Part shown: piece after piece, positions 1,552-55,959 of the stretch
How the letters are laid out: every line of letters starts with the position of its first letter
Numbering within the stretch: position 1 is the first letter of the stretch
IMG/VR virus record: IMGVR_UViG_3300028025_000091
Span: 62,001-126,000 of that record
Strand: one strand, 5' to 3'
DNA length: 64,000 nt
Source: a virus
The notes under the pieces: generated by a model
Database searches by the model: none
What the model was told of the DNA's origin: nothing
The model's input: the letters and a program-made list of their open reading frames with translations, nothing else
Translations under genes and position numbers: made by a program

Positions 1552-3321
1552 ATGGCAGAAACAATTGTATCACCTGGTGTATTAGCAATAGAAAATGATC
1601 AATCATTTATAACACAACAACCTGTACAAGCAGGTGCCGCTATCGTAGGTCCAACAGTAAAAGGTAAAGTAGGTATTCCTACAATTTGCACAACATATAG
1701 TGATTATCTAAATAAATATGGTGCTACTTTTTTAAGTGGAAGTACTACATATACTTATCTTACTTCAATTGCTGCTTACAACTATTTTGCAGGTGGTGGA
1801 AACACATTACTTGTTACTCGTGTAGTAAGTGGTAGTACAACCACAGCTTGGACCCCAGCTACTTCATCATTTATATCCTCATCTGCTCATGCAGCCGGTG
1901 CCCCTTATAATACTTCAACATTTGTTTTAGAAACATTAGCTGAAGGAGAAATTTTAAACAGTGTAGGTCCTACGGGTTCAAATGGTACACTTTTAAGTGG
2001 TTCTGCAGATAATTACAGATGGCAAATTGTTTCTCCTGATACTAATAATGGAACTTTTACACTTGTTATCCGTCAAGGGAATGATTCAAATATTCAAAAC
2101 TCTATTTTAGAAACTTGGGGTCCACTTTCATTAGATCCATATGCTTCAAACTATATTGAAAAAGTAATTGGTAATCAAATTGAAAATATAGCAATAGATA
2201 ATGGTGAATACTACATCCAATTATCTGGAAGTTATCAAAACCAATCAGCTTATGTTCGTGTTAAACAAGTAAATCAAACCACACCAAATTATTTCGATAA
2301 TGTAGGAAACCCTAAAAATGAATTTACTGGATCAATCCCAGTAACTCAAAGTGGTGTATTTGGAGATGCAAAAGGAAGTAATATTCCTACATTTGCTGCT
2401 GGAGCGTATTATGAAAATATTTCAAATACTAATGTTCAAGGTTTAAAAGCTAATGATTATACAGAATCTATTTCTTTATTAGCAAATAAGGATGCTTTTA
2501 AATATAATTTATTAATTGCTCCTGGTTTAATTGCTGACCCACAATCTTTTAATTTACATAATGCTGTAGTAAATCAAATGATTACAACAGTTCAAGAAAG
2601 AGGAGATTCAATGGTAGTAACAGATGTAGTTGGATATGGATCAAATATCACCCCAGTAGTTACTAGTGCACAATCAAAAGATACTTCATATGCTGCGACA
2701 TATTGGCCTTGGTTACTCACTGTAGATCCTAATACATCTAATTATGTTTGGGTTCCTACAGCTACATTAATTCCTAGAGTATATGCTCAAAACGATGCTA
2801 TTGCTTATCCTTGGTTTGCACCAGCAGGTGTTAATCGTGGAATAATGACATCTGTTATTAAAACTGAAAGAGTATTAACACAAGGAAATAGAGATACATT
2901 ATATAAAGCAAACATTAATCCAATCGCAAATATTGCTACAGCTGCTGGATCAGCAATATCAGTATTTGGACAAAAAACATTACAGAAAAAAACAACTGCT
3001 TTAGATCGTGTAAATGTACGTCGTTTATTAATTGAACTTAAAAATTATATATCTCAAGTAGCTGATACATTTGTATTTGAACAAAATAATGAAGCAACAA
3101 GAAATAGTTTATTATCATTAATTAATCCTTATTTATCACAAGTTCAACAACAACAAGGTTTAACATCATTCCAAGTTATAATTAATGAATCAAATAATAC
3201 ACCTACTACAGTAGATCAAAATCAATTAATAGGCCAAATTTATTTGCAACCAACTAAAACAGCTGAATTCATTATATTAGACTTTAATATATTACCTACA
3301 GGTGCAACGTTTCCTGCTTAG
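1552..3321 (+). CDS. gp18: Tail sheath protein, first paralogue (gp18-like)
   Basis: 589 aa. Subunit of the contractile sheath around the tail tube. The N-terminus (ETIVSPGVLAIENDQSF, then QAGAAIVGPTVKGK..TICTTYSDYLNKYG) is the classic sheath opening: an SPGV-x-(I/E) strand followed by a GP-x-x-G-P-like loop and an F/Y-x-x-x-YG motif. The C-terminal domain near 465-589 (RVNVRRLLIELKNYISQVADTFVFEQNN..TRNSL and a long Gln-rich helix, then QIYLQPTKTAEFIILDF) is the conserved sheath-sheath interlocking region. A tandem paralogue follows 46 nt downstream. The two align from end to end but differ in the middle domains, which are surface exposed in known sheaths. Confidence 0.93.
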   Translation: MAETIVSPGVLAIENDQSFITQQPVQAGAAIVGPTVKGKVGIPTICTTYSDYLNKYGATFLSGSTTYTYLTSIAAYNYFAGGGNTLLVTRVVSGSTTTAWTPATSSFISSSAHAAGAPYNTSTFVLETLAEGEILNSVGPTGSNGTLLSGSADNYRWQIVSPDTNNGTFTLVIRQGNDSNIQNSILETWGPLSLDPYASNYIEKVIGNQIENIAIDNGEYYIQLSGSYQNQSAYVRVKQVNQTTPNYFDNVGNPKNEFTGSIPVTQSGVFGDAKGSNIPTFAAGAYYENISNTNVQGLKANDYTESISLLANKDAFKYNLLIAPGLIADPQSFNLHNAVVNQMITTVQERGDSMVVTDVVGYGSNITPVVTSAQSKDTSYAATYWPWLLTVDPNTSNYVWVPTATLIPRVYAQNDAIAYPWFAPAGVNRGIMTSVIKTERVLTQGNRDTLYKANINPIANIATAAGSAISVFGQKTLQKKTTALDRVNVRRLLIELKNYISQVADTFVFEQNNEATRNSLLSLINPYLSQVQQQQGLTSFQVIINESNNTPTTVDQNQLIGQIYLQPTKTAEFIILDFNILPTGATFPA

Positions 3322-3367: not shown

Positions 3368-5086
3368 ATGGCAAATTTTACAACTTCTCCTGGAGTAGCA
3401 ATTAGCGAAATAGATAACACTTATTTGACAGGACAACCTGTTCAAGCGGGTGCTGCTATTGTAGGCCCAACAGTTAAAGGACCTGTTGAGACACCAACCT
3501 TAGTAACCTCTTATTCAGATTACGTAACAAAGTTTGGAGAAACATTTATTAGTGGTGGTCAATCATATTCATATTTAACTTCAATTGCTGCTTATAATTA
3601 TTTCAATTATGGAGGAACTTCATTATTAGTTGCTCGTGTAGTAACTGCATCAGCTAACTGGGCATCAGCTCAAAGCACAACCATTCCAAATTACTTCACT
3701 TCAGCATCATTTGTTTTAGAAACAATTTCTGAAGGAACTATTATGAATAACTCAGGCTCTAATGCTTTAGGAGCTAATGGAACATTAAATTCAGGATCAT
3801 CTGATAATATTCGTTGGGAAATTACCAATTCAAATACTGGATCAGGAACATTTAATGTTTTAGTTAGACGTGGTAATGATACTGAATCTAATAAAGCAGT
3901 ATTAGAAGCATGGAATAACTTAACACTTGACCCTAATTCAAATCGTTATATTTCTCAAGTAATTGGTGATCAAGTATTGAATTATAATGCCGCGAATAAT
4001 CAAATGGAATTATCTGGAAGTTATCCAAATATGTCCCAGTATATTCGTGTTAAAACTGTTAATTACTCAACACCAGATTATTTTGATGCAAACGGTGTAG
4101 CAATTAGTGCTTATACAGCTTCAATCCCAGTAAACGGTAGTGGTTCAGAAGGAGGTTCATTTTATAATGCTAGTGGAACAGTAAATAGTACCATCAATTT
4201 ATATAATAATATTTCAACTAACACTCAAGGATTGATTGGTGCTAGTTACAATAATATGATTGCGTTAATGGGTAATCCTGAAGCTTACCAATTTAATCTT
4301 TTATTCACTCCAGGATTATTAAACGATACTCATACCGCTCAAATTACAAATATTATCTCTAATACAATTGCACGAGGTGATAACATGTATGTAATGGATT
4401 TAGGAGCATTTGGAACAACAACAACCGGTGCCATAATCCAAGCTCAAACACGTGATACTTCATACGCTGCATCTTATTTCCCTTGGGTTCGAATCATTGA
4501 CCCATCAACAGGAAAACAAGTATGGGTTCCAGCTTCAACAGTAGTACCAGGTGTATATGCATTTAATGATAAAGTATCAGCTCCATGGTTCGCACCAGCA
4601 GGTATTAACAGAGGTGGATTAAGTACAGTATTACAAGCTGAGTTGAAATTAACTCAAGGTAATCGTGATACATTATATGCAAATAATATAAACCCAATTG
4701 CAACATTACCTAAACAAGGAGTTGTAGTATACGGACAAAAAACATTACAAAAATCCCAATCAGCTCTTGACCGTGTAAATGTTAGACGTTTGATGATTGA
4801 ATTAAAAGGATATATTCGTCAAATTGCAGATACAATAGTATTTGAACAAAACAATATCACAACAAGAAATTCATTTATAGCACGTGTTACTCCATATTTA
4901 GAAGGAATCCAACAAAAACAAGGACTATATGCTTATAAAGTTGTTATGGATGATACAAATAACGGACCAGCAGTAATTGACCAAAACCAATTAGTAGGAC
5001 AAATTTATATCCAACCAACACGCACAGCTGAATTTATTTCATTAGATTTCATCCTAATGCCTACAGGAGCTCAATTCCCAGGATAA
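3368..5086 (+). CDS. gp18: Tail sheath protein, second paralogue (gp18-like)
   Basis: 572 aa, clearly homologous to the preceding sheath protein along its whole length. Shared blocks include SPGVAISEIDNTYLTGQPVQ, GAAIVGPTVKGP, TSIAAYNYF, AASYFPWVRIIDP-type, RVNVRRLMIELKGYIRQIAD and QIYIQPTRTAEFISLDF. The N- and C-terminal sheath-core segments are the best conserved, and divergence is concentrated in the central domains (about residues 100-330). The pair could be co-assembled, used at different positions, or alternative products. Both frames are intact and each has its own upstream element, so neither looks like a pseudogene. Confidence 0.93.
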   Translation: MANFTTSPGVAISEIDNTYLTGQPVQAGAAIVGPTVKGPVETPTLVTSYSDYVTKFGETFISGGQSYSYLTSIAAYNYFNYGGTSLLVARVVTASANWASAQSTTIPNYFTSASFVLETISEGTIMNNSGSNALGANGTLNSGSSDNIRWEITNSNTGSGTFNVLVRRGNDTESNKAVLEAWNNLTLDPNSNRYISQVIGDQVLNYNAANNQMELSGSYPNMSQYIRVKTVNYSTPDYFDANGVAISAYTASIPVNGSGSEGGSFYNASGTVNSTINLYNNISTNTQGLIGASYNNMIALMGNPEAYQFNLLFTPGLLNDTHTAQITNIISNTIARGDNMYVMDLGAFGTTTTGAIIQAQTRDTSYAASYFPWVRIIDPSTGKQVWVPASTVVPGVYAFNDKVSAPWFAPAGINRGGLSTVLQAELKLTQGNRDTLYANNINPIATLPKQGVVVYGQKTLQKSQSALDRVNVRRLMIELKGYIRQIADTIVFEQNNITTRNSFIARVTPYLEGIQQKQGLYAYKVVMDDTNNGPAVIDQNQLVGQIYIQPTRTAEFISLDFILMPTGAQFPG

Positions 5087-5131: not shown

Positions 5132-5620
5132 ATGCCAATTTTAGATCAAAATCAGATATTTTTCACTCCATTTGAACCAAAACAAAGTAATCGTTTTGTC
5201 GTTTCAATCGATGGCGTTCCTGGATACTTAGTTAAAGGAGTTAGTGCAATTTCTGCTACACAAACAGCGGTTGCTCTTAACCATATCAACATTCAACGAT
5301 ATGTAAAAGGAAAAACTATCTGGGGACCTATTACATTTACAATGTACGAATCAATCACTCCATCTGGTGCACAATCAATAATGGAATGGGTACGTTTAGG
5401 TCACGAATCAGTAACAGGTAGAGATGGATATTCTGATTTCTATAAAAAAGATATCTACTTCAATGCTGTAGGACCTGTAGGTGATTATGTATCTGAATGG
5501 GTAATCAAAGGAGCTGTTATTACAAGCGTTAACTTTGGAGATTACAACTGGGATGATGACGGAACTGTAGTAAACATTACAGTTGAAGTTCAACCAGATT
5601 ACTGTGTATTGAACTACTAA
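5132..5620 (+). CDS. gp19: Tail tube protein (gp19-like)
   Basis: 162 aa, the usual size for the T4 gp19 family. Forms the inner tail tube through which DNA passes. Visible family features are the opening F-x-x-x-x-x-x-NRFVVSIDGVPGYLVKGVS, the central NIQRYVKGKTIWGPITFTMYE segment, and the closing WVIKGAVITSVNFGDYNW with a Val-rich strand ending in a Pro-Asp-Tyr-Cys turn. It directly follows the sheath genes, the conserved sheath-tube order. A rho-independent terminator lies just downstream. Confidence 0.92.
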   Translation: MPILDQNQIFFTPFEPKQSNRFVVSIDGVPGYLVKGVSAISATQTAVALNHINIQRYVKGKTIWGPITFTMYESITPSGAQSIMEWVRLGHESVTGRDGYSDFYKKDIYFNAVGPVGDYVSEWVIKGAVITSVNFGDYNWDDDGTVVNITVEVQPDYCVLNY

Positions 5621-14472: not shown

Positions 14473-14784
14473 ATGAATCGATATAATGTAGCTCAAGTAG
14501 TTAAAACTGTAGAAGATCCAAGAAGAAGATATACAAATATAAAGTATCCTTCAATTTTGCCATCTTCTGCTGATATTTATATATATACGGGTCAAGGAGA
14601 TAGATATGATACTTTGGCTTTAACATATTATAGTGATACTACGTTATGGTGGGTTATTAGTAGATCAAATCCTTCCCAACCAAACGATACATTATATCCG
14701 AATGTTGGAGCTCAAATTAGAATACCTGCCTCTTCTAGAATCCCACAATTAATATCTGCATTCCAGAATTTAAATAGTATTTAA
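14473..14784 (+). CDS. LysM-like baseplate protein (gp53 / gpX type)
   Basis: 103 aa. Residues about 30-90 form a LysM-like unit: IYIYTGQGDRYDTLALTYYSD, TLWWVISRSNPSQP, then a Val-Gly-x-x-(I)-RIPASSRI strand. This is the I-x-x-GD-x-x-x-x-(I/L)A-x-x-(Y/F)-x-x-x-x-x-W-x-(I)-x-x-x-N pattern shared by tail LysM proteins and T4 gp53. In T4, gp53 locks baseplate wedges together around the hub. It is followed 13 nt later by the large hub-like gene with an AAAAGTT-ATG start context. Confidence 0.7.
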   Translation: MNRYNVAQVVKTVEDPRRRYTNIKYPSILPSSADIYIYTGQGDRYDTLALTYYSDTTLWWVISRSNPSQPNDTLYPNVGAQIRIPASSRIPQLISAFQNLNSI

Positions 14785-14797
14785 AATTTAAAAAGTT

Positions 14798-17467
14798 ATG
14801 GCATTAATAGGAGAACCAATCCCTCAATACGTTCAAAATCAAATACAAGTTCGACAAGCTTCTTATGGTAGTGGTAGTCTTCCTGGTTTCCCAAGAACTG
14901 AGGAAATTTTACTCCACCAAAATTCCAATAATGCCTTTATTAAAATGGCATCTGGAGTTTCAATTTCAGCTGAGAAATTATCAGGATCAATGAATAGTTT
15001 AGGTTTTGGTGCTTTTGAAGTAGAAGCATTACAGGGGATGGGACTTGCTAAAAACTATGTTTTATTTGGTGGAACTGCTCAAATGGGAACATCCCCATCA
15101 GGTGAGGGAGTTCTTCAACAAAAGACTAATTTTTTAGGAAATCAAGGAGCATATGAAGCTACACCTAATTTCGGAATAGTTCCAATGCCAGGCATAGATA
15201 GTTTAGAAGTAAAATCACTAAATAGAGGATCATTAAAAAAAGCAACAGTAAAATTGACTGCCCAAACTAGAGATCAACTTGCTATTCTAGATGTTTTATA
15301 TATGCGTTTAGGATATACTGTTTTAATTGAATGGGGTAATTCTATTTATATGGCTTCTTCTGAACGGGAAACAAAAGATGGAAAAATTGAAGAAGGAAGA
15401 TTACAACAAATGTATACCTCTATTATAGAAAATAATTCTTTATTTTTTAATGCATCTTGGGAAAAGGGTAAGTCATATCTTGATCTTACAGAACAAATAG
15501 CTAAAGCTAGAAAAAATTATGATGGTAATTTTGATGCTTTACTAGGTAAAGTTTCAAATTTTAATTGGACATTTAACCCCGATGGATCATATACTATAGA
15601 ACTTACTGTTATCAGTTTGGGTGATGTAGTTGAATCTTTAAAAACTAACATTGCCGCTTCATATCAAACGTTAGCATATGTTGATACAAATGACCTTACT
15701 TGGGCTACTGAAGGTGAACCTATTGATACCTATAGAAAAGATAACATTATTCTTTCCATGCTCCATGTATTTAGACTACAAAATCTATCCCCTACAGGAG
15801 ACCCTATTACTATATATACTAAAAAAGGTGATGATTCTCTTCAAAAAAATGCTAAACTTGGAAATTTATTAGTTACAGGACCTCCTAGTATTAGTGGAAG
15901 TGATCATTATATAACTGAAACATTATATGTAGGATTTCAAGATAATGGAAAATGGATAGAACCTGGTGATTTAACAAATGAAGCCTATTGGGCCCCGGAT
16001 GGTCGAGAATTATCACAAGCTGAAGCCCAAACTCGAGCTAATGGTATTGCCGATAATGTTTTAGGTGGTAAATTAGAAGATTATAAAGGATATGGATATA
16101 AAGTAGTTGAAAGACCACTAAGTAGTGCTGTTGGTAGTGTTGGTATGACTGCAGGATCATATGCAAATTTCGCAACTTTAGTCTTTAAATACAAACGTGC
16201 CTTTCAAATATACACAGAAACATCCCCCAAATTTTCAGACGCTGCTTGGCTCCCATATATTGAGGTCCCTGCAGCTAGTAGAATGTCAGACCCTAAACTT
16301 GATACTAATCCTGTTGTTTTATACAGAAAAAACTTTGTAACTGAATACTCAGGTTACACATATGATGCTAAGAAAAAAGTCCCAGCAGCATCACTTGAGT
16401 ACATCACCCCATCAGCCCTCCTCTCCCCCTTATTTATCCAGGGTAATCCTTCTGCTATAGCTTCTGTTAAAGCAGGGACAAATGTCATTAAAGTTACTGA
16501 AGGTATTGATTCCAAAGAATCTTCCGTAAGTAGAGGATCTTTCAAAAATCCTTTAACAGGAACAGGATATGAAAAACAAGATGCTTTTGTAATAAAATTA
16601 GATAAACCCCAATATTATGTAAGATTTGGATATTTATTAAGTTTACTTAAACAAAAGGTTATTACTCGTATCAAAACTAATGATACCTCATATGAAAAAT
16701 ACCCAAACTTATTTGATATAAACACCTCTAATAATCAAAAAATGTTATGTTTACCCCTTCAAATATCTTTTGATTGGAGAACATGTATAGTAAAACGAGA
16801 AAATTTTTATAGAGATTCATGGAAACAAAATATTTTTAAAGAATTAGCAGACTGGGTGGATGGTAGTAATACCGCAAATATTATGAATATTTATTTGAAT
16901 TTTAATTTTCTTGCAAATTCTATGTCTTCTAATATGGATGAGCGAGGGAATGTCTCAGTATATGATTTTATTAAAGCGATATGTGATGGTATTAATAAAG
17001 CCATGGCCGGTGTAAACAACCTAGAACCTATTATAGATGAAGACACGAACACATTAAGTATTTTTGAATCATCCCCTATCCCTAAAGATTCCCCCGACCC
17101 AGGATATCATCTTCAACTTTATGGTTATGGAAATGGCGTTACTAGTCCGGCAGGAAATTCAACATTTGTTAGAAAAGTTGATTTAAAAACAGCAATCACC
17201 CCAGAATACGCTACAATGATTACTGTTGGAGCAACCGCTAATGGATACGTTAAAGGAGTAGAAGCAACAGCATTTGCTAGATGGAATGATGGATTAACAG
17301 ACAGATTCAAATCAGAACTTGTAGCAGCCGATAAAGATACTAACGACGATACCAAGGGAACTCGTGAGGATACCATTAATAGTTTTTTCCAAGCTATGAG
17401 TTGGAATGCTAAATGTTTTGGAATAGAAGGAGGAGGTAACCTCTGGGATATGTTCCCTAATCCGTAA
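14798..17467 (+). CDS. Large baseplate hub-like structural protein
   Basis: 889 aa. Residues about 125-280 carry the best-structured part: PNFGIVPMPGIDSLEVKS, GSLKKATVKLTAQTRDQLAIL, DVLYMRLGYTVLIEWGNSIY, and NFNWTFNPDGSYTIELTVIS. This reads as a hub-type beta barrel (gp27 or gp44 class) that tethers the spike. The C-terminal region (about 690-860) has DEDTNTLSIFESSP and SFFQAMSWNAKCFGIEGG, then stops. The next three genes begin with a short domain that looks like the continuation of such a hub, so the protein may be a split hub whose last domain is encoded separately and in three versions. Start context AAAAAGTT-ATG. Contractile-tail hub role is inferred from order and pattern. Confidence 0.65.
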   Translation: MALIGEPIPQYVQNQIQVRQASYGSGSLPGFPRTEEILLHQNSNNAFIKMASGVSISAEKLSGSMNSLGFGAFEVEALQGMGLAKNYVLFGGTAQMGTSPSGEGVLQQKTNFLGNQGAYEATPNFGIVPMPGIDSLEVKSLNRGSLKKATVKLTAQTRDQLAILDVLYMRLGYTVLIEWGNSIYMASSERETKDGKIEEGRLQQMYTSIIENNSLFFNASWEKGKSYLDLTEQIAKARKNYDGNFDALLGKVSNFNWTFNPDGSYTIELTVISLGDVVESLKTNIAASYQTLAYVDTNDLTWATEGEPIDTYRKDNIILSMLHVFRLQNLSPTGDPITIYTKKGDDSLQKNAKLGNLLVTGPPSISGSDHYITETLYVGFQDNGKWIEPGDLTNEAYWAPDGRELSQAEAQTRANGIADNVLGGKLEDYKGYGYKVVERPLSSAVGSVGMTAGSYANFATLVFKYKRAFQIYTETSPKFSDAAWLPYIEVPAASRMSDPKLDTNPVVLYRKNFVTEYSGYTYDAKKKVPAASLEYITPSALLSPLFIQGNPSAIASVKAGTNVIKVTEGIDSKESSVSRGSFKNPLTGTGYEKQDAFVIKLDKPQYYVRFGYLLSLLKQKVITRIKTNDTSYEKYPNLFDINTSNNQKMLCLPLQISFDWRTCIVKRENFYRDSWKQNIFKELADWVDGSNTANIMNIYLNFNFLANSMSSNMDERGNVSVYDFIKAICDGINKAMAGVNNLEPIIDEDTNTLSIFESSPIPKDSPDPGYHLQLYGYGNGVTSPAGNSTFVRKVDLKTAITPEYATMITVGATANGYVKGVEATAFARWNDGLTDRFKSELVAADKDTNDDTKGTREDTINSFFQAMSWNAKCFGIEGGGNLWDMFPNP

Positions 17468-17473
17468 TAAGTT

Positions 17474-18454
17474 ATGCCTAGTAGTTTCGTAGATTCAAGA
17501 ATAAACCAAAATTTAGAAGTAGCAACCGAATACTTTAGGGCTCTAGTATCCGAAAAAACCACTAATACTCTAAACAAAGTAAATAAATCCGCGGGTTCTA
17601 TAGGTTTTATTCCTTACAATGTATCATTCACTATGGATGGTATTAGCGGAATTAAAATTTATAACGAACTATCTTTAGATACAAGTTTTTTACCTCCTGG
17701 TTATTCCGAAGTTACTAATTTTATAGTAACGGGAGTAGATCATAAAATACAAAACGGTGATTGGGAAACTAATATAAATGTAACTCTTATTCCTAGAACT
17801 GATCCTATAGATAATGTCATTACAAGTAGTCTTACTATCTTTGGCCAAATTGAAACCGCTCCTCCTACCCCAACAACCCCAACAGGTCCAGGCAGTGGAA
17901 CAACAATTGTAGCTAGTAAATCATTAAAAGAAGTCCTTATAGCAGCAGGATATCCTACAGGTACATTCAAACATGAATTTGCACTTGTTATAGGTACTAA
18001 AGAGGGCTATGTAAAAGGTTCATCCAATAGGCCATCAAGAAATAACAACCCAGGTAATCTAGCAGGTGCAGATTTTAAAGACATAGACCCAGGTGTAGTA
18101 ATAGAACCACCAAATGCAAAAGGTGAACAAAAATTCGCTAAATTTACAACTCCAGAACTGGGTGCTAAAGCTTTGGTTGAGAGAAAGATTAAAACATGGG
18201 GGAATGGTGGATATCCACCAACACAGGTAAATGGAAAAGATACAACATACCAAAATAAATGGGGTGTACCTGCATCTACAAGAGATATTCAAGGAGACAA
18301 TGTTAAATTAACCATAGAACAATTTATGTATATATATGCCCCACCAAACCAAAATAACACTGAAGGATATATAAATTCAGTAATTAATGCTTTAAAAGGA
18401 AAATACCCAACAATAACAAGAACTTCAAGAATAATCGATTTTATAAATTTATAA
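17474..18454 (+). CDS. Spike-like protein 1: shared hub module plus lysozyme/glucosaminidase-like domain
   Basis: 326 aa. Residues 1-128 are the module shared with the next two proteins (MPSSFVDSRINQNLEVATEY, NFTMDGISGI-type, DTSFLPPGY, FIVTGVDHKIQNGDWETN, ITSSLTIFGQ). A Pro/Thr/Gly linker (129-145) leads to a C-terminal domain with an EFALVIGTKEGY helix (E177 a candidate catalytic acid), NNNPGNL (190-196) and a KFAKFTTPELGAKALVE helix. The NNNPGN pattern is typical of phage muramidase or glucosaminidase-type structural lysins. It would sit at the tail tip and open the peptidoglycan during infection, like the T4 gp5 lysozyme domain. Start context AATAAGTT-ATG. Confidence 0.72.
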   Translation: MPSSFVDSRINQNLEVATEYFRALVSEKTTNTLNKVNKSAGSIGFIPYNVSFTMDGISGIKIYNELSLDTSFLPPGYSEVTNFIVTGVDHKIQNGDWETNINVTLIPRTDPIDNVITSSLTIFGQIETAPPTPTTPTGPGSGTTIVASKSLKEVLIAAGYPTGTFKHEFALVIGTKEGYVKGSSNRPSRNNNPGNLAGADFKDIDPGVVIEPPNAKGEQKFAKFTTPELGAKALVERKIKTWGNGGYPPTQVNGKDTTYQNKWGVPASTRDIQGDNVKLTIEQFMYIYAPPNQNNTEGYINSVINALKGKYPTITRTSRIIDFINL

Positions 18455-18488
18455 TATATTACTTAAAACTTAAATATTTACCCCAATC

Positions 18489-19559
18489 ATGCCTAGTAGC
18501 TTTGTAGATTCAAGAATAAACCAAAACCTAGAAGTAGCAACAGAATACTTCAAGGCTCTTGTGTCTAAAAGGACCTATGATGCAGACAATAAATTGAATA
18601 CCGCTGCTGGGTCTTTAGGTTTTATTCCTTTTAACATGAATTTTACTATGGATGGAATAAGCGGTATTAAAATCTATAATAAATTATCCGTTGATACAAG
18701 TTTTTTACCTCCTGGATACACCAATACAATGGAATTTATAGTAACGGGAGTAGATCATAAAATACAAAACGGAGACTGGGAGACAAATATTAAAACTACT
18801 TTTATTCCAAAAACAGGTAAAATAGACAATTACATAACAAGTAGTCTTACCATCTTTGGTCAAGTTGAACAAGCACCCACTAATACACCCCCATCAGACC
18901 CAGGTGTAGTTTCAGGTACAGTCACAGATAATGATCTTTGGATATATTTAACTTGGCAACAAGGTGAGGGTGGTGCTGCAGAACATTATAAAATTGCTAA
19001 AGGAACTAGAGCTTCCTATAGTCTTGTTACAAAAGCAGCTATTAAAAACAACTGGCCTGGTAGTTTAGTAGCCTCTAATGGAGTTAAAAAATCAGATATT
19101 GATTCTTTATACACATCAAATCCTCAAAAATTATCTCAAGGTTTTATAGATGTTTGGAAAACACAATATAAATCAAGAACATCAACGGCCCCATCAAAGA
19201 TAGATAGTGCTGGATCAAATGAAGTTGGCCTTCCATACTCTACTATAAAAGCAGCATTCATTACCGCCGCTGATCCTTCAAATGGAATAGGATATTCAAA
19301 TCTTGTCAATTTTGCATATATAGAAAATTCTTTCCAAAATGATTCCGAAACTTCAAATCTATACCAAGGTATGTTCCAAATGAATAAAACTACTCCTAAA
19401 TATAAAGCAGTATTAGATAAATATAACGATGGTAAAGGACGTAATTCATCATATACTAAATATGGAACCTCAGATTTTACAGGTTTTATGAAAGATATAG
19501 TTCCATTAATAATCTCAAAATTTAAATCATTTAAAACCGCATCAGGTTACCCCAATTAA
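18489..19559 (+). CDS. Spike-like protein 2: shared hub module plus transglycosylase (SLT)-like domain
   Basis: 356 aa. Residues 1-128 repeat the shared hub module. The first ~77 nt are identical to the third paralogue, suggesting recent duplication or gene conversion. Residues about 148-230 add a small helical insert (LTWQQGEGGAAEHYKIAKG). The C-terminal domain near 250-350 has FAYIENSF (E279) followed by YQGMFQMN (292-299), the E..S and G-(L/M)-FQ-(I/M)N signature of goose-lysozyme/SLT transglycosylases. It differs in enzyme class from both neighbours. A weak AAATATTTACC element lies before it at about 18471. Confidence 0.72.
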   Translation: MPSSFVDSRINQNLEVATEYFKALVSKRTYDADNKLNTAAGSLGFIPFNMNFTMDGISGIKIYNKLSVDTSFLPPGYTNTMEFIVTGVDHKIQNGDWETNIKTTFIPKTGKIDNYITSSLTIFGQVEQAPTNTPPSDPGVVSGTVTDNDLWIYLTWQQGEGGAAEHYKIAKGTRASYSLVTKAAIKNNWPGSLVASNGVKKSDIDSLYTSNPQKLSQGFIDVWKTQYKSRTSTAPSKIDSAGSNEVGLPYSTIKAAFITAADPSNGIGYSNLVNFAYIENSFQNDSETSNLYQGMFQMNKTTPKYKAVLDKYNDGKGRNSSYTKYGTSDFTGFMKDIVPLIISKFKSFKTASGYPN

Positions 19560-19570
19560 TAAAACTTTAT

Positions 19571-20488
19571 ATGCCTAGTAGCTTTGTAGATTCAAGAATA
19601 AACCAAAACCTAGAAGTAGCAACAGAATACTTCAAGGCTCTTGTGTCTGAGAAGACTTATGATATTAATAATAAATTAAATAAATCAGCGGGTTCTATAG
19701 GTTTCATCCCCTTTAATATTAATTTTACTATGGATGGAATAAGTGGTATTCAAATTTATAATCAATTATCTATTGATACAAGTTTTTTACCCCCTGGGTA
19801 TACTGATACTCTGGATTTCATAGTAACAGGGGTAGATCATAAAGTACAAAACGGAGATTGGGAAACAAATGTAAAAGTAACCCTTATCCCTAGCACCAAT
19901 CAGATAGACAATTCTATAACAAGTAGTCTTACTATCTTTGGTCAAGTTGAACAAGCACCTGCTACCCCATCATCAGGACCAACAGTAACAGCAACAGGGG
20001 CATGGAGGATTTGGAATAAAGGTATATTCATTACATCCCCATATGAATTAAATATCCACCATTCTGGTCCTGGTCAGGTTTTTGAAATAGATCCTTCAAA
20101 TACTAGAAGTGGAAAATGGTCAAAAAATTCTGTTGGAAAATACATTTATGATGTTTGCTTATTTAGAAACGAAGGTGGAATTGAACAAAATAGACCATTT
20201 GTTCCTTCCCCAACAAATGGAACTGTAATAAGTACATCCCCTGATTCTGGTGGAAATTCATTTTTCACTATCAAGGGAGATGATGGATTAATATATGATT
20301 TTCTTCATATGGATAATTATCAAGTAGGTGTAGGTGATAAAGTAACCAAAGGTCAATTAATTGCAAGACAAAGTGATGTCATGCAAGTAAGACCAGGATA
20401 CCCAAAAGCAAATCACTTACATATGCAGATGCCAACAAAACAAGCACTAATAGATTATATTAATAGTTTATTAAATAATAGTTTCTAA
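19571..20488 (+). CDS. Spike-like protein 3: shared hub module plus M23 (LytM-like) peptidase domain
   Basis: 305 aa. Residues 1-128 are the shared hub module. After a short linker, residues about 150-300 read as an M23 endopeptidase: PFVPSPTNGTVISTS, YDFLHMD (H246), VGVGDKVTKGQLIARQ and a closing NHLHMQM (H282, H284), equivalent to the GHL..GxxVxxGQxIG..HLHFE core. The upstream zinc ligands (usual H-x-x-x-D) are less clear; NIHHSGPGQVFEID is the candidate. It would cut peptide cross-links, complementing the glycan-cleaving neighbours. Confidence 0.75.
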   Translation: MPSSFVDSRINQNLEVATEYFKALVSEKTYDINNKLNKSAGSIGFIPFNINFTMDGISGIQIYNQLSIDTSFLPPGYTDTLDFIVTGVDHKVQNGDWETNVKVTLIPSTNQIDNSITSSLTIFGQVEQAPATPSSGPTVTATGAWRIWNKGIFITSPYELNIHHSGPGQVFEIDPSNTRSGKWSKNSVGKYIYDVCLFRNEGGIEQNRPFVPSPTNGTVISTSPDSGGNSFFTIKGDDGLIYDFLHMDNYQVGVGDKVTKGQLIARQSDVMQVRPGYPKANHLHMQMPTKQALIDYINSLLNNSF

Positions 20489-20499
20489 TAGTTATAATC

Positions 20500-21141
20500 A
20501 TGGCATATTATCCAAAATCCCAAGTCAAAACTAATTTATATACCAATGGTAATGAATATGCTCTTAGTACCACACAACAAGAGTATACAGGATATTATTA
20601 TAAAACATCAAGTGGAAAACTATATACAGGAAAAAATCCACAAACAAACCCCACAATCCTTTTACAAATAATTACTCCTACATTAGATGATGTCCCTTCT
20701 AATGACTCTCTACAACCCCAATCATCTATTAATCCCATACCAAGATCATCTAATAATATACAAATAGTTAATAATTCCCCATCATCAATTGACTATCGCC
20801 CAGGAAATGCTGTAGACCGTGTTATCCCACAATTTAATGTAACCCTACCAACTGCTTCAGATAAACAAAGAGGATTCCTTATTCGCTATTTCTGCAAAAA
20901 GAATAATGAACTAATCTACTTTGAAACTTCCCAAGCAGACTATGATAGAATTAAAAGCCAAGACCCATCAACCGCATATGATTTATATTCAGTTGCTGCA
21001 CTTAAATGGTATATAACTGGAATTACCACTCAAGTTGCTAATCAAAATATATCCCAAGTCAACCAAACATCAGCGGCAAACGGATGGTTAGGTTTTATTC
21101 AATATTTCCAAGGAGACTTTACTAAATACTTGGGAACTTAA
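20500..21141 (+). CDS. Structural protein at the end of the baseplate operon, unknown
   Basis: 213 aa. The N-terminus (YYPKSQVKTNLYTNGNEYAL) reads as an extended Tyr-rich arm and the middle is Pro/Ser/Asn-rich. Residues about 125-190 are better ordered (RGFLIRYFCKKNNELIYFET, then DLYSVAALKWYITG), followed by a Trp/Phe-rich tail. No motif is recognised. It ends the first structural block, 23 nt before the DNA polymerase ATG. A baseplate or virion component is likely from operon position. Confidence 0.6.
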   Translation: MAYYPKSQVKTNLYTNGNEYALSTTQQEYTGYYYKTSSGKLYTGKNPQTNPTILLQIITPTLDDVPSNDSLQPQSSINPIPRSSNNIQIVNNSPSSIDYRPGNAVDRVIPQFNVTLPTASDKQRGFLIRYFCKKNNELIYFETSQADYDRIKSQDPSTAYDLYSVAALKWYITGITTQVANQNISQVNQTSAANGWLGFIQYFQGDFTKYLGT

Positions 21142-21164
21142 TATATAGTTTGTATCTTCAAAGC

Positions 21165-22415
21165 ATGTATTGGCTCATAGAAGATATTGAACATATAGAA
21201 ACAATTTGTCGCATTAAGCACCAAGAGGCTTATGTAGACATTATTCCATGTTCACATACACTTCACCCTGTTGAAAACGAAGTATGTGCTATATATATTA
21301 GACCAAAAAATGATACAAAAGGATACATCATTGCTATAAACCATAGCGAAACAATAAACTTTGATTTAGAGGTAGTAGAAAGAGTATTAAACAGTATTGA
21401 AAATATTTATGTAAGGGATAGAAAAGAATTTTTACATTACTTCCCAATCAAGCACTGTTACCAACCATCACCCTCCCCCCATACGTATATACCTCAATTA
21501 ACACAAGCCCACACTCAGTTATATCATAGGTACCCACAAGTACAAAATCTAAACACAATTGTACCGATCGTAAAACACTATGAGGTATGTGAACAAAACT
21601 TTGCAAACTACGACAAAACAAACCTAAATCCGTTTTACAATAAGGCGGCATTAGTGTTTAATCAACTCGAACGAGCGGGTATAAAAGTGGATCAAATCAA
21701 ATTCGAGCAGTACTTCGACAAAGAAGCAAACGAGTTTATATACACGCAATATAATTTAAATACATTAACCACAAGACCTTCAAACGCATTTGGAGGCATT
21801 AACTTTTCAGCTTTAGATAAAAACAATGGAGAAAGAGAATGTTTCATACCGCGCAACAATTCGTTTATTGAAATGGATATTAGTGCTTACCATCCTACCC
21901 TTCTTGCTAATTTACTTGATTACACTTTCGATAGCAGTGATATCCATGGTAGTTTTGCTAAAATGTATGGAGTGGATTACGCCAAAGCAAAAGAGATCAC
22001 GTTTAAACAAATTTATGGTGGAATTTGGAAAGAGTATAGGGAACTTCCCTTCTTTAGAAAAGTAACAGCATATACGGACGATTTGTGGGATACATTCAAT
22101 TATGGGGGACACATCAAATGCCCAATTTCAGATCATAAGTTTTATAGCAAAGAACTGGAAAACATGAATCCACAAAAACTTTTGAATTATGTACTCCAAA
22201 ACTTGGAGACCGCAAATAATGTTTGTATACTATACGATATTTTTAAAATATTACGAGGGAAAAATACTAAACTCGTGTTGTATGTGTATGATTCGTTTTT
22301 ATTTGATTACGATAATAGTGAACCGGATGTAATGCTTAAAATATTAGGAATATTTAACAAATACAATTTACAAATAAAAACCAAAAAAGGCACAAACTAC
22401 GCCAATATAAAATAA
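21165..22415 (+). CDS. Compact family A DNA polymerase
   Basis: 416 aa from ATG 21165 (an upstream in-frame TTG at 21150 is less likely). The three palm/finger motifs of Pol I-type enzymes are visible. Motif A is FIEMDISAYHPTLLA with D238. Motif B is an AKAKEITFKQIYGG helix at 273-286, equivalent to the O-helix K..NFG..YG. Motif C is LVLYVYDSFLFDY with D376. The N-terminal ~150 residues look like a reduced exonuclease-like fold with no visible D-x-E exonuclease motif. At 416 aa it is less than half of E. coli Pol I and shorter than T7 polymerase. It precedes SSB, recombinase and helicase genes, so it is the likely replicative polymerase in this window. Proofreading may be absent or supplied by another protein. 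Confidence 0.82.
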   Translation: MYWLIEDIEHIETICRIKHQEAYVDIIPCSHTLHPVENEVCAIYIRPKNDTKGYIIAINHSETINFDLEVVERVLNSIENIYVRDRKEFLHYFPIKHCYQPSPSPHTYIPQLTQAHTQLYHRYPQVQNLNTIVPIVKHYEVCEQNFANYDKTNLNPFYNKAALVFNQLERAGIKVDQIKFEQYFDKEANEFIYTQYNLNTLTTRPSNAFGGINFSALDKNNGERECFIPRNNSFIEMDISAYHPTLLANLLDYTFDSSDIHGSFAKMYGVDYAKAKEITFKQIYGGIWKEYRELPFFRKVTAYTDDLWDTFNYGGHIKCPISDHKFYSKELENMNPQKLLNYVLQNLETANNVCILYDIFKILRGKNTKLVLYVYDSFLFDYDNSEPDVMLKILGIFNKYNLQIKTKKGTNYANIK

Positions 22416-26836: not shown

Positions 26837-26862
26837 AAACATGACATTTCCAATTGTTGTTA

Positions 26863-26876
26863 ATATGTATAATAAA
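26863..26876 (+). promoter_or_regulatory. Candidate late promoter variant (ATATGTATAATAAA)
   Basis: G-variant of the late element, 7 nt before ATG 26884 of the GIY-YIG gene. The same variant lies before the second GIY-YIG gene (56803) and before a fibre gene (59068). Free-standing homing endonuclease genes in T4-type phages often carry their own late promoter. Confidence 0.45.
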
Positions 26877-26883
26877 ACAACAT

Positions 26884-27507
26884 ATGGTGATTTATTTAAC
26901 AACTCATGTTATAACTGGAAAAAAATATATTGGAAAGGATGTATCAAATAGTCCTAGTTATTTTGGAAGTGGAGCTGAAATTAAACAGATAATTAAAACA
27001 GAAGGTAAAAGTAATTTAGTTAAAACTATACTTGAACATTGTGATTGTAAAGAAGATTTAGCTAAACGAGAAGAATTTTGGTTGCAAAAGTTTGATGCCG
27101 AAAACAATCCATTGTTTATGAACAGAACAAACAAAGCTTTTGGAAATAGTGGACTTTCGGATGAAACAAAATTAAAGATTAAAATATCTAGTTTAGGTAA
27201 ACCAAAATCTACCGAAGCAAGAAATAATATGAGTAAAGGAAGAACAGGTAAAACTAGAAACCAAACAAAAGTTAGATCAGATAAGGGAAAACCAAGAGGA
27301 ATTAGCCCATGGGTTTCAGAAAGTCTTAAAACTAGAAATAGAGAATCTACCTTCAAACCAGTTATACAATATGATCTAGAAGGTAATATTGTTAGAGAAT
27401 ACAAATCTGCCCAAGAAGCAAAAGATATTACAAATTTAAAAATCCAGAATGCTCTTTTAGGAACTACTAAAACTTCTGGAGGTTATATTTGGAAATACAA
27501 AGAATAA
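26884..27507 (+). CDS. GIY-YIG homing endonuclease
   Basis: About 207 aa from ATG 26884 (the longer reading to 26854 begins at TTG inside the promoter-like element). The N-terminus MVIYLTTHVITGKKYIGKD is the GIY-YIG core, followed by SYFGSGAEIKQ and an EEFWLQKFDAENNP helix. The middle has a NUMOD3-like basic repeat (SDETKLKIKISSLGKPKSTEARNNMSKG in outline) and the C-terminus a NUMOD1-like unit (VIQYDLEGNIVREY..SAQEA..GGYIWKYKE). These endonucleases cut DNA of related phages to spread their gene. It interrupts the replication operon before the helicase. Confidence 0.85.
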   Translation: MVIYLTTHVITGKKYIGKDVSNSPSYFGSGAEIKQIIKTEGKSNLVKTILEHCDCKEDLAKREEFWLQKFDAENNPLFMNRTNKAFGNSGLSDETKLKIKISSLGKPKSTEARNNMSKGRTGKTRNQTKVRSDKGKPRGISPWVSESLKTRNRESTFKPVIQYDLEGNIVREYKSAQEAKDITNLKIQNALLGTTKTSGGYIWKYKE

Positions 27508-45926: not shown

Positions 45927-48900
45927 ATGTTTACACCATTTGCCTTCATACAACCTATAACAACAGCTATCCCGATTACTCCCTCAACACAGTATTTGTT
46001 GATTGGAGGATCGTTTACTTTATATAATGTTCCCGTATTAAACCGAATGGTTAAAATAGATGCAAATGGTGATATAGATAATTCGTTTAATATAGGAACA
46101 GGTTTTGGTAATGTTCCATTTGATATCAAACAACAACCCGATGGAAAATATGTTGTAGGAGGAAACTTTACTTCATATAGTGGTTCTAGTGTAAATTATT
46201 TAACACGTTTAAATCATAATGGTACTAGAGATACTTCACTTAATATAGGAACTGGATTCAATTCTGCTCTATATACTGTTTCTCCCCAATCAGATAATTC
46301 GAATATAGTAGTAGGAGCATTTACTTCATATAATGGTTCTGCAGGGAAAAATTATATAGCAAAAATTACCCCTTCGGGTAGCCTAGATGCAACTTTCAAT
46401 ACGGGAATAGGCTTTAATAATAGTAGCACATATACTATAATTACCCAAGCAGACGGTAAACCTATAATTGGTGGAATATTTACCCAATATAGTAGTTCTA
46501 ATAATTATATAACCAGAACCGATTTATCAGGCTCATACAACGCAGGCCCGGGAACGGGATTTAATACTGGTGTTGGATTTAATAATGTTGTCTATACATA
46601 TGCTACACAATCCGATGGAAAAATCATTTTAGGAGGATCATTCACCCAATACAGTGGTTCCTCAACTAATACTACAAGATTAATTCGATTAAATACTAAT
46701 GGTACCCAAGATACTTCATTTGTAACCGGAGTTGGATTTAATACAGATGTTTATACAATTAAAGTACAAACAGATGGAAAAATAATTGTAGGTGGACTTT
46801 TTACTACTTATAGTGGTTCAACTGTAAACTACATTACAAGACTTAATTCAAGTGGTTCCATAGACACTACATTTAATACAGGAACAGCTGCTTCTTCAAC
46901 GGTATGGGATAGTCATATCCAATCAGATGGAAAAATTGTTATAGTAGGTGGATTTGGTACATATAGTGGATCTTCAAACCCAGGTATTGTAAGAATTAAT
47001 AATAGTGGATCTAAAGATGCTACTTTTAATGTAGGAGCAGGAACTGTTGGTGCTGCATATTCAATAAACCCTACTGGGTCTCAATATATTGTAGGAGGAA
47101 ACTTTACTTCATATAGTGGTTCTTCTAATAATTACATAGTTCGTATAAATTCTGATGGTACTAAAGATACATCATTTAATATTGGTACAGGATTTAGTAG
47201 CACAGTAAATGATACTACAATAGAACCTAATGGAAAAATTTTAGCAATAGGACAATTTACAACATATAGTGGTTCCTCAACAAACACCACTAGAATAATC
47301 AGATTAAACCCAAATGGTACCCAAGACACAACATTTGTAACAGGAACGGGATTGAATCAAGTTACCCCCAACGGAAACCACCTTTCAATAGAATCAGATG
47401 GTAAAATATATGTTGGATCTCAAATGGCTACTTATAGTGGGTCAACTGTTAACTTTTTTGCTAGGATTAATCCTAGTGGAACTTTAGACACTACATTTAA
47501 TGGATATACATCCAACATTGCTTATGGAATAGGATTTAATAATGTTATAAGAACATTATTTATATCTGGGTCTAATATCTATTTTGGAGGAAGTTACATA
47601 GCCTATAAACCAACAAACCGAATTATTAGATTAAACACTAATGGTACTCAAGATACTACATTTTCTCTTGGAGAAGGAATTACTGGTGGTCAAAATACTA
47701 TTTATTCCTTAGTTTCTCAATCTGATGGAAAAATTATAGCAGTAGGAGCATTTTCTACTTATCAAGGATTCTCCCAAAATAACATTACTAGACTTAATAC
47801 AGATGGTACTAGAGATACAACATTTAATATAGGTACAGGATTTAATAATACTGCAACCTCAGCAACTGTACAACCAGATGGAAAAATAGTTATTATGGGA
47901 CTTTTTACTACATATAGTGGTTCCTCTTCAAACCGTATAATTCGCCTTAACCCTAGTGGTACTTTAGATACAACATTTAATATTGGAGCTGGAATTGATA
48001 CCGTAAGCAGCGCAGTTGGAGCTTCTAAGATTATTTCCACCCCAGATAACAAAGTTTATGCTACTACAGTAGGTATGGCTAGTTATAGTGGTTCATCTAT
48101 TGGTAATCTTGTTAAAATTAATTCAAGTGGTTCTATAGATACCACATTTGGTACTACTTCTTCATTTTCTTTTAATAGTACTGGAAGGGGATTTTATGCT
48201 GCATCTAGCCCTGGTGGATACACATTGATTCTTAGTGGTTCAAGCGTAATAGTAGGAGGACAATTCTTAACATATAAAAATACAGCATTTCTGTATGGTG
48301 GCATGATAGATACAACAGGTGCCATTTCTTCTTCATTTAACATAGGGGCAGGATTTAGTACTACAGTTCGAACATGGGTTACTCAATCTGATGGTAAAAT
48401 TTTAGCAGCCGGAGCATTTACCACATATAGTGGTTCCTCAACTAATACAACACGAATTATTCGTTTAAATAGAAATGGTACCCGAGATACTTCATTTGTA
48501 ATAGGAACTGGATTCAACAGTACTGTAACAGATCTTAGAATACAATCTGATGGAAAAATATTAGCAATAGGACAATTCACAACATATAGTGGATCCTCAA
48601 CTAGTGGAATAGTTCGTTTAAACATAAGCGGTACTCGTGATACTACATTTAATGTAGGAACAGGTTTTACATTAGCACCAGATGCTAGACATTGTAAAAT
48701 TCAATCAGATGGAAAAGTTGTAGTAGTAGGTAACTTTACTACATATAGTGGCTCTACACAACAATATATTACTCGAATTAATACTGATGGTACTAGAGAT
48801 ACAACCTTTAATATAGGCACAGGATTTAATAACACTGCAGAAGCAGTGATTCTTCAACCTGATGGAAAATTAATTGTAGGAGGACAATTTACAACATATA

Positions 48901-49364
48901 GCGGATCAAGTCAAAACCGTATAACCCGAATAAATACAGATGGTACTCTTGATACTACATTCAATTCAGGAACAGGATTTGGTGGACCGACATATGCTTT
49001 AGCACTCCAATCTGATGGAAAAATAATATGTACCCATCAAAATCAAACATATAGTGGTTCTACAACTAGATATATAACACGGATTAACCCTAGTGGTACT
49101 TTTGATAATACATTTAACGCGGATGCAAATTCTTCTTTATCCTCTACATCAAATACCCAAAATAGTTTAGTAATTGCTAATGATGGCTCAATATATTGGG
49201 GAAATGCTTTTACTACTTTTAGTGGATCTTTTATACCAAACCGTATAGTAAGATTAAATACTAATGGATCAGTAGATGAAACATTTAACCAAGCATTCCC
49301 TAATTTTGTTAACAATACAGGAAAAGGAGCAGATAGTACAGTAAACGCAGTATTATTAATATAA
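45927..49364 (+). CDS. Delta-60-repeat adhesin/fibre (about 21 repeats)
   Basis: 1,145 aa, almost entirely made of ~53-residue repeats. Consensus: (I/V)QSDGKI(I/V)(V/A)GG-x-FT-x-YSGSS-x-x-x-(I)-x-R(L/I)N-x-(N/S/D)GT-x-DTTFN-x-G-x-GF(N)-x-x-V. I count 21 units (first at about residue 26, last ending about 1,120), several of them degenerate. The pattern matches the delta-60 repeat family, thought to fold as blades of beta-propellers, as in bacterial surface adhesins. The C-terminal ~25 residues are separate (NTGKGADSTVNAVLLI). No signal peptide, so it is a virion protein rather than an exported one. It may form successive propellers along a fibre. Confidence 0.85.
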   Translation: MFTPFAFIQPITTAIPITPSTQYLLIGGSFTLYNVPVLNRMVKIDANGDIDNSFNIGTGFGNVPFDIKQQPDGKYVVGGNFTSYSGSSVNYLTRLNHNGTRDTSLNIGTGFNSALYTVSPQSDNSNIVVGAFTSYNGSAGKNYIAKITPSGSLDATFNTGIGFNNSSTYTIITQADGKPIIGGIFTQYSSSNNYITRTDLSGSYNAGPGTGFNTGVGFNNVVYTYATQSDGKIILGGSFTQYSGSSTNTTRLIRLNTNGTQDTSFVTGVGFNTDVYTIKVQTDGKIIVGGLFTTYSGSTVNYITRLNSSGSIDTTFNTGTAASSTVWDSHIQSDGKIVIVGGFGTYSGSSNPGIVRINNSGSKDATFNVGAGTVGAAYSINPTGSQYIVGGNFTSYSGSSNNYIVRINSDGTKDTSFNIGTGFSSTVNDTTIEPNGKILAIGQFTTYSGSSTNTTRIIRLNPNGTQDTTFVTGTGLNQVTPNGNHLSIESDGKIYVGSQMATYSGSTVNFFARINPSGTLDTTFNGYTSNIAYGIGFNNVIRTLFISGSNIYFGGSYIAYKPTNRIIRLNTNGTQDTTFSLGEGITGGQNTIYSLVSQSDGKIIAVGAFSTYQGFSQNNITRLNTDGTRDTTFNIGTGFNNTATSATVQPDGKIVIMGLFTTYSGSSSNRIIRLNPSGTLDTTFNIGAGIDTVSSAVGASKIISTPDNKVYATTVGMASYSGSSIGNLVKINSSGSIDTTFGTTSSFSFNSTGRGFYAASSPGGYTLILSGSSVIVGGQFLTYKNTAFLYGGMIDTTGAISSSFNIGAGFSTTVRTWVTQSDGKILAAGAFTTYSGSSTNTTRIIRLNRNGTRDTSFVIGTGFNSTVTDLRIQSDGKILAIGQFTTYSGSSTSGIVRLNISGTRDTTFNVGTGFTLAPDARHCKIQSDGKVVVVGNFTTYSGSTQQYITRINTDGTRDTTFNIGTGFNNTAEAVILQPDGKLIVGGQFTTYSGSSQNRITRINTDGTLDTTFNSGTGFGGPTYALALQSDGKIICTHQNQTYSGSTTRYITRINPSGTFDNTFNADANSSLSSTSNTQNSLVIANDGSIYWGNAFTTFSGSFIPNRIVRLNTNGSVDETFNQAFPNFVNNTGKGADSTVNAVLLI

Positions 49365-55110: not shown

Positions 55111-55959
55111 ATGAAACACGTAGTAGTATCCTTATCTGGAGGGATGGATTCCTCCACATTGTTACTTCGTTGCTTGAAAGAGTACGATACCGTAACAGCA
55201 ATTTCATTTGACTATGGTCAAAAACATCGAGTTGAGCTTGAACGTGCTCAATCGTTGGTAGATTATATTAATCATATTAATTCTGCCTATTCATCAATTC
55301 GTTATCGTCAAATCCAATTAAATGGATTAGTTGATCTTTTAGATTCAGCTCTGGTAACAGGTGGAGATGATGTACCTGAAGGACATTATGCTGAAGAAAA
55401 CATGAAAGCAACAGTTGTTCCAAATAGAAACAAAATATTTGCTTCAATCGTACAAGCAGTTGCACTTTCAGTAGCAAATAAAACAGGAGAAAATTGTGAT
55501 ATTGCAATGGGAATCCATGCAGGTGATCATGCAATTTACCCTGATTGCCGACAAGAATTTAGAGATGCAGACGACCATGCTTTTAGAATGGGGAATTGGG
55601 ATGCAGAGCGAGTAGGTTACTTTACACCATACCTTGAAGGTGATAAATTTACCATCTTACAAGATGGAGAAGTATTATGTGGTGAATTAGGTTTAGACTT
55701 TAATGAAGTATATAAACGTACAAACACTTCATACAAACCAATTTTCCTTAATTTAGCATTTGTAAATAATGAAGATGAAATAGTTGATTGTTCAGATTGG
55801 TTCTCTGATTATAAATCAGCAAGTTCCGTGGAGCGAGTAGAGGCCTTTATTAAATTAGGAAGACCTGATCCCGCAGGATATGCAGATGAAGAAGGTCCTG
55901 TAAGTTGGGAACATGTAGTAACAGAAGTAACAAAAGTACTAGAAAACCATGAAGGATAG
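55111..55959 (+). CDS. queC: QueC-like PP-loop enzyme without the usual zinc cysteines
   Basis: 282 aa. PP-loop ATP pyrophosphatase: VVSLSGGMDSSTLLLR with SGGMDSS at 9-15, FDYGQKHRVELERA, VVPNRNKIFASIVQAVA and IHAGDHAIYPDCRQEF are the QueC signature blocks. Canonical QueC makes preQ0 from 7-carboxy-7-deazaguanine and has a four-Cys zinc site near the C-terminus. Here the matching region reads KRTNTSYKP (about 202-210) and EIVDCSDWFSDYKSASSVER (about 223-242), with only one Cys (C227), and the C-terminus is longer than usual. That suggests altered activity, for example a decarboxylase of the DpdL type, or zinc loss. The gene still ends GRPDPAGYA as in QueC. Confidence 0.8.
   Translation: MKHVVVSLSGGMDSSTLLLRCLKEYDTVTAISFDYGQKHRVELERAQSLVDYINHINSAYSSIRYRQIQLNGLVDLLDSALVTGGDDVPEGHYAEENMKATVVPNRNKIFASIVQAVALSVANKTGENCDIAMGIHAGDHAIYPDCRQEFRDADDHAFRMGNWDAERVGYFTPYLEGDKFTILQDGEVLCGELGLDFNEVYKRTNTSYKPIFLNLAFVNNEDEIVDCSDWFSDYKSASSVERVEAFIKLGRPDPAGYADEEGPVSWEHVVTEVTKVLENHEG

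Follow-up and report, generated by a model that had tools for sequence, protein, structure and literature searches.

A predicted split baseplate hub in a contractile-tailed phage: one core gene and three tandem genes that join a shared module to different enzyme-like domains

We analyzed a 64,000-nucleotide stretch of viral DNA (positions 62,001 to 126,000 of the IMG/VR record IMGVR_UViG_3300028025_000091; hereafter, the window), in which a baseplate hub gene is followed by three tandem genes that begin with the same module and end in three different enzyme-like domains. We propose that the baseplate hub gene of this contractile phage has come apart: the core remains in single copy, and the detachable last domain exists in three enzyme-bearing versions, which would dock onto the core in trans. 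We assign a probability of roughly 0.7 to this reading.

Three tandem genes share one module

A first-pass annotation of the window, made from the nucleotide letters, had described three consecutive genes with a common N-terminal module of about 128 residues. The three open reading frames (ORFs) were confirmed (Table 1). The N-terminal 128 residues of copies 2 and 3 are 77% and 80% identical, respectively, to those of copy 1, and the alignment is nearly free of gaps. When the whole 173,789-base viral contig was searched, the module was present at these three genes only (E values from 5e-65 to 5e-83) and the hub core was found once. The C-terminal parts of the three genes have no relationship to one another, as had been described, and the motifs quoted for them are all present (Table 1). 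Every module copy is under purifying selection: the ratio of nonsynonymous to synonymous substitution rates (dN/dS) is approximately 0.1-0.2 between copies.

The identity of about 77 nucleotides at the starts of genes 2 and 3 had been taken as a sign of recent duplication or conversion. The identical tract is 78 nucleotides long. Between copies 2 and 3, the synonymous divergence (dS) is 0 over the first 26 codons and approximately 1.06 over the rest of the module, and identical comparable codons number 25 of 25 in the tract versus 48 of 74 outside it (Fisher P = 0.0002). Therefore, a short and recent conversion or recombination tract lies on an old duplication. A recent duplication of genes 2 and 3 was ruled out by the dS value outside the first 26 codons.

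The module is fused to the hub in relatives of the phage

Because the window contains two sheath genes (1552-3321 and 3368-5086) together with genes for the tube (5132-5620), a gp53/LysM-like wedge protein and an 889-residue hub protein, the phage is contractile-tailed. The hub gene thus lies in a contractile-tail gene block and adjoins wedge genes. To collect relatives, a hub alignment from six of them was used for a profile search of IMG/VR, which gave 41 loci; an additional module search returned 222 relatives, from which 79 loci were kept (loci are cited below by L numbers). In distant relatives, a single ORF covers the hub core (profile 1 to approximately 868) and the module (9 to approximately 122), and it usually continues into a single domain at the C-terminus, some 150-300 residues long. 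No fused relative has more than one enzyme-like domain after the module. A fused version, which the first-pass annotation had suggested looking for, is therefore common: in a module tree with 93 distinct sequences, 70 lie within hub ORFs, joined to the same core (a few of these ORFs are cut at contig ends), and 23 stand alone. When hub sequences are compared, the closest isolates are the Flavobacterium phages vB_FspM_immuto, in which the module lies within the hub gene. Among the phage-collection isolates, immuto was the sole hub match and the split or tripled state was not found. In the bacterial genome collection, no relative was found at the sensitivity of the viral cassette B scan described below. 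The slot has the same gene order in fused and split loci: gp53-like gene, hub, modules where present, MYYPKSQ gene and MYWLIED gene.

In contrast to the fused family, core, module and enzyme do not form one polypeptide in the window: the hub ends before the module, and three separate module-enzyme genes follow. The large upstream protein was correctly described as ending where a hub would continue, because the hubs of relatives run on at this point. In the window clade, the split point lies in the linker after CFGIEGG; at the aligned join, fused hubs continue into IExNLSVVTEYFK. Three stand-alone module copies are present in the window, L001 and L002, two in L003, L005, L006, L015, L122 and L138, at least two in L183 and one in L121, and every split locus with complete flanks has a module gene. 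The spacer between the hub stop and the start of module 1 is 6-21 nucleotides, and the two share a frame in 8 of 10 loci (nominal P 0.003, which ignores shared ancestry), L002 and L015 being out of frame. The short spacers and the usually shared frame are what a split within a gene, by a stop in the linker, would leave. The split label requires two changes on the module tree; the split clade may nevertheless stem from one origin. Two old paralogue lineages of the module, one at the first position and one at the last, have been maintained across genomes of this clade, whereas the module pairs in L122 and L138 resemble local duplications. Split hubs end in a conserved C-terminal tail, (L/I)W(D/E)xFP (window 17438-17467; L001-L006, L121, L122), whereas fused hubs have no such tail at that place. 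The W(D/E)xFP tail may be a new docking peptide.

A second, different split point was also observed. In many relatives (L036/L087, L066, L067, L069, L072, L083, L084, L089, L101, L105, L106 and L108), the hub is broken in its variable middle into N-half and C-half genes, and the C-half retains the module and the enzyme.

Predicted structure of the hub with module 1

We modelled the read-through sequence of the hub and module 1 as a single chain with AlphaFold2 (AF2; TAA read as Gly, 1020 residues, 26-row alignment). The predicted local distance difference test (pLDDT) value was 66 and the predicted template modelling score (pTM) was 0.63, with blocks of approximately 70-89 pLDDT over the C-terminal strands of the module. 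In a Foldseek search, the best PDB matches of this model were hub-class chains, namely the T5 tail-tip chain 7zqp_b (E 4.8e-6) and 3d37 (E 9.8e-4), followed by weaker matches to VgrG, injection-system and T4 gp27 chains; the matches are given for the query as a whole, core and module together. Among viral models (BFVD), the best match was a phage protein of 1239 residues that is annotated as glucosaminidase-like (E 3.4e-52, 1159 columns), and lower matches were tail lysins and one peptidase-bearing protein. Sequence comparison with Mu gp44 gave no match, and module or hub profiles found chance matches only in the PDB. Thus, the structure prediction that the first-pass annotation had proposed points to a hub-family fold for the hub with module 1, at moderate model confidence.

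The fused relatives and this model support the idea that the module is the last domain of the hub. The three proteins had been called spike-like; on this evidence, the modules are better described as probable hub parts and not spikes.

Three different enzyme-like cassettes

The C-terminal parts of genes 1, 2 and 3 are called cassettes A, B and C (Table 1). The families matched by cassette A bear the names tail injection transglycosylase and endolysin. Its glutamate and NNPGN motif are invariant across six relatives. L185 has three complete hubs, and cassette A shares 59% identity with the cassette that the first of them carries; Pfam gave no useful match for gene 1. In cassette B, E279 is followed by YQGMFQMN, which corresponds to the SLT-type arrangement of Glu and then G-x-(F/M)-Q. 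This arrangement is conserved in the C-termini of the fused hubs L042 and L063, to which cassette B is 46-50% identical. No Pfam or PDB profile match was obtained for cassette B, so the lysozyme superfamily has no profile support here, and the AF2 model of gene 2 with its cassette (pLDDT 46) was too poor for a meaningful fold search. Scanning viral sequences with cassette B as the single query gave no match; the same scan with a two-sequence alignment recovered the L042 contig and L063. Cassette C has a Pfam M23 score of 39 bits (curated cut-off, 28.7), and its HxH motif is HLH. A conserved HHS is present near residue 163 of gene 3, and the PDB matches of this gene include residues 791-896, the C-terminal peptidase, of the hub 8kea_A. 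Three enzyme types had been claimed for these genes. The family matches uphold the claim for gene 1, the SLT motif is what speaks for it in gene 2, and Pfam agrees with M23 for gene 3, where the usual first zinc-ligand histidine is missing.

Table 1. Features of the hub slot in the window (all on the + strand)
Feature	Position	Strand	Remarks
LysM/gp53-like baseplate wedge protein	14473..14784	+	phrog_7145 baseplate wedge subunit E 5.6e-11; directly 5' of hub; same position in the loci read, fused and split alike
Baseplate hub core	14798..17467	+	889 residues; stops in linker where relatives run on into module; C-terminal tail GGGNLWDMFPNP
Module and cassette gene 1	17474-18454	+	326 residues
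Hub-completing module (predicted), copy 1	17474..17857	+	128 residues; same frame as hub, 3' of TAA TAA
Cassette A: RNNNPGN lytic-transglycosylase/lysozyme-like	17858..18451	+	E177, NNNPGN at 190; phrog_7182 tail injection transglycosylase E 3.4e-13; PDB 9vvp_L E 8e-6 by profile
Module and cassette gene 2	18489-19559	+	356 residues
Hub-completing module (predicted), copy 2	18489..18872	+	first 78 nucleotides identical to copy 3
Cassette B: possible SLT-type muramidase	18873..19556	+	E279 in ENSFQND...YQGMFQMN; motif only
Module and cassette gene 3	19571-20488	+	305 residues
Hub-completing module (predicted), copy 3	19571..19954	+	homologous to copies 1 and 2
Cassette C: M23 metallopeptidase-like	19955..20485	+	H246, HLHMQM at 282; PF01551 E 9.8e-10, above cut-off
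MxYYPKSQ family gene (MYYPKSQ gene)	20500..21141	+	213 residues; conserved, downstream in slot; syntenic in fused and split loci

Cassettes are exchanged among relatives

The modules of L003_2 and L005_2 are 96% identical, whereas their cassettes (M23 and VanY, respectively) cannot be aligned. The same was observed for L001_1 and L002_1 (modules 92% identical), L001_2 and L002_2 (90%), L006_1 and L015_1 (89%), and L006_2 and L015_2 (88%). Stand-alone modules carry Hydrolase_2/SleB, VanY, M15_4, M23, Phage_lysozyme2, RNNNPGN-type and B-type cassettes. Several cassettes recur on fused hubs: B in L042 and L063, RNNNPGN in L040, a VanY-like cassette in L029 and immuto, and the L001_1 type in L052. 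These comparisons support the view that module-enzyme versions are interchangeable in evolution. The earlier proposal was a hub whose last domain exists in three interchangeable versions. Its hub part agrees with the roughly 70 fused relatives and the hub-like fold, and interchangeability holds in the evolutionary sense. In the hubs of L045 and L046, the module is retained and the enzyme is absent.

A hub without a C-terminal enzyme is also found in L038, where it is followed by a separate gene for 175 residues (L038:11522-12049). In this case, the enzyme may have detached without the module.

Complete hubs in tandem form a second arrangement

In two contigs, 3300042549_010437 (L114/L118) and 3300008448_001074 (L119/L185), three complete hubs are arranged in tandem. 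Every one of these hubs includes a module, their C-terminal domains differ, and one hub of L114 is broken into two genes. The C-termini include an RNNNPGN type, a CHAP-like domain and, by eye, one domain like an SGNH/GDS hydrolase. On the module tree, two of the three hub positions pair between the two contigs, one of these pairings being weak. Because the positions pair, the tripling of the hub is probably older than both contigs and has been retained. No contig was found to have more than three versions. Known hubs have three subunits, and the agreement of this ceiling with the subunit number is suggestive only.

Neighboring and other genes

The tandem sheath genes both match phrog_23 (E 3e-66 and 2e-70) and possibly encode a two-component sheath. 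The conserved MYWLIED gene (21150-22415, 421 residues) gave no clear family match; by eye, its stretch EMDISAYHPTLLANL resembles a polymerase palm motif. A Pfam scan of the hub and its neighbors gave no useful match, and PADLOC gave no match. Outside the slot, a 1145-residue protein with 19 DUF5122 beta-propeller repeats (45927-49364) is possibly a fibre or receptor-binding protein. Genes for 7-deazaguanine DNA modification may be present, namely a QueC homologue (55111-55959, E 6e-36) and a gene that weakly matches radical SAM proteins (58066-58848). An ORF at 26854-27507, which lies among replication genes, looks like a GIY-YIG-type endonuclease by eye.

Discussion

On the basis of these results, we propose the following course of events. 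The ancestor was probably one fused gene with the order core, module and enzyme. A stop and a restart in the linker would have detached the second half of this gene. The detached half would then have been duplicated in tandem, and its enzyme exchanged repeatedly by recombination just 3' of the module. Each version now consists of the module, a Pro/Thr-rich linker and a putative peptidoglycan hydrolase of its own, and every version would dock in trans at the same site on a trimeric hub core, so that up to three different hydrolases could be present per tail tip. During penetration of the cell wall by the tail, glycan-cutting and peptide-cutting hydrolases may work jointly or may serve as a hedge across hosts.

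The composition of a single tip is a further question. A heterotypic tip, in which the trimeric core is completed in trans by three different subunits, has in our judgment an even chance of being correct. One virion would then deliver several peptidoglycan-cleaving activities, and lineages would have an evolutionary plug-in site at which enzymes are exchanged while the hub stays unchanged. The presence of several versions within one virion is suggested because the hub core is single, the module genes are adjacent and co-oriented, and the module residues are conserved. Tandem triplication of the whole hub would be a second route to the same mixed trimer.

Several points weigh against the proposal. 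Presence in virions, composition of the trimer and enzymatic activity are all predicted from genes. The fold of gene 2 is unconfirmed by profile or model, and the first zinc motif of gene 3 is K-Y-I-Y-D (residues 190-194) instead of HxxxD, with the same K in L003_2 and L006_2; because of these two features, one or two of the cassettes could be non-catalytic. The single-chain model of hub and module is of moderate confidence. In the model of gene 2 without the hub core, the pLDDT of the module was approximately 35-50, as compared with approximately 70-89 (C-terminal strands) in the hub context, which fits a module dependent on the hub core, but the alignments used for the two models differ too. 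In hhalign, the module aligned with residues 333-358 in the C-terminal region of T4 gp27 at a non-significant level (E 0.07; 6 of 200 column shuffles scored as high). Finally, the ceiling of three versions is drawn from about a dozen loci.

The strongest alternative is that tips are homotypic. The versions would compete, one version would fill all three positions in a given virion or host condition, and a burst would be a mixture of particles that differ in their enzyme, not of particles with several enzymes each. The modules differ outside their conserved core, and the two old paralogue lineages kept by position could allow like-with-like assembly. Moreover, VgrG1 and VgrG2 reportedly form no heterotrimers in one type VI secretion system (PMC4924876). 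In contrast, the residues conserved in fused hubs are common to all copies, and the hub core is single; the genes are adjacent and tightly spaced, and therefore the versions are probably co-expressed and compete for the same sites. We regard homotypic tips as rather unlikely, though to be taken seriously. A much less probable view is that the stand-alone module proteins no longer belong to the hub: they would be accessory lysins or chaperone-like factors, for example bound at another place in the baseplate or acting in lysis, while the hub core works without its last domain. Enzyme and hub can indeed separate, as L045, L046 and L038 show. However, no split locus with complete flanks dispenses with the module gene, and the residues conserved in hubs are retained in its product. 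Furthermore, L045 and L046 have lost the enzyme and kept the module, which is the opposite of what this alternative predicts. Stop-codon readthrough, which would fuse the hub to module 1 and leave modules 2 and 3 as extras, fits the frame shared by hub and module 1 in most loci; it was rejected, and seems very improbable, on the two consecutive in-frame TAA codons of the window and the two out-of-frame loci; in addition, module gene 1 has retained an ATG of its own, and its N-terminus is the one found in copies 2 and 3. An assembly artefact or a chance repeat has a negligible probability, because this arrangement recurs in many contigs that stem from separate metagenomes, with continuous ORFs under purifying selection.

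The proposed split hub can be compared with several known systems. In gene context (sheath, tube, gp53-like wedge and hub) and in the predicted fold of hub with module, the window resembles the baseplate hub family (T4 gp27, Mu gp44, T5 7zqp_b and the N-terminal part of VgrG), but in the window the core and the last domain are encoded as separate polypeptides, the latter in several copies. The immuto hub (YP_010114650, annotated as carboxypeptidase) has a homologous core, a module, a C-terminal domain of the carboxypeptidase type and a similar gene neighborhood; unlike the window, it is a single fused gene with one enzyme. The usual picture of a phage hub is a homotrimer whose chains each carry no more than one set of enzyme domains. 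Virion-associated peptidoglycan hydrolases are usually encoded by one gene, with one or more domains in cis. Such hydrolases (T4 gp5, tail lysins) act at the tail tip in wall penetration, as is proposed for the window, where the alternative versions, known from their genes, would instead be supplied in trans on a common docking module.

The nearest precedents are the VgrG spikes of type VI secretion systems, which come closest, and the hub of cyanophage A-1(L), which has multiple enzymes. As with the modules of the window, VgrG spikes occur in several hub-type versions with different C-terminal cargo; they differ in that they belong to a secretion system, are paralogues of the whole VgrG and have an unsplit hub. 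For V. cholerae and A. dhakensis, mixed VgrG complexes were reported to be necessary, and a later view is that multiple effectors, not a heterotrimer, are needed (PMC8668125); in the other type VI system mentioned above, VgrG1 and VgrG2 did not mix (PMC4924876). The A-1(L) hub gp15 (PDB 8kea) is a trimeric myophage hub; action of its peptidase and endoglucanase domains on host cells has been demonstrated (PMC10966104). Its C-terminal peptidase aligns to the gene 3 cassette, and the hub has more than one hydrolytic activity, as proposed for the window. All domains of gp15 are on one chain, and thus its subunits are identical, whereas the window has a separate chain per activity. In the literature searched, we found no example of a phage hub completed in trans by alternative subunits, which does not prove that none exists.

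In the window and its split relatives, a domain of the hub appears to have become an independent, multi-copy adaptor, and the relatives show exchange of enzymes at its edge. This locus therefore offers a concrete case for asking whether tail tips may be hetero-oligomeric, why several wall-cutting specificities are kept together and how enzymes are swapped between phage lineages.

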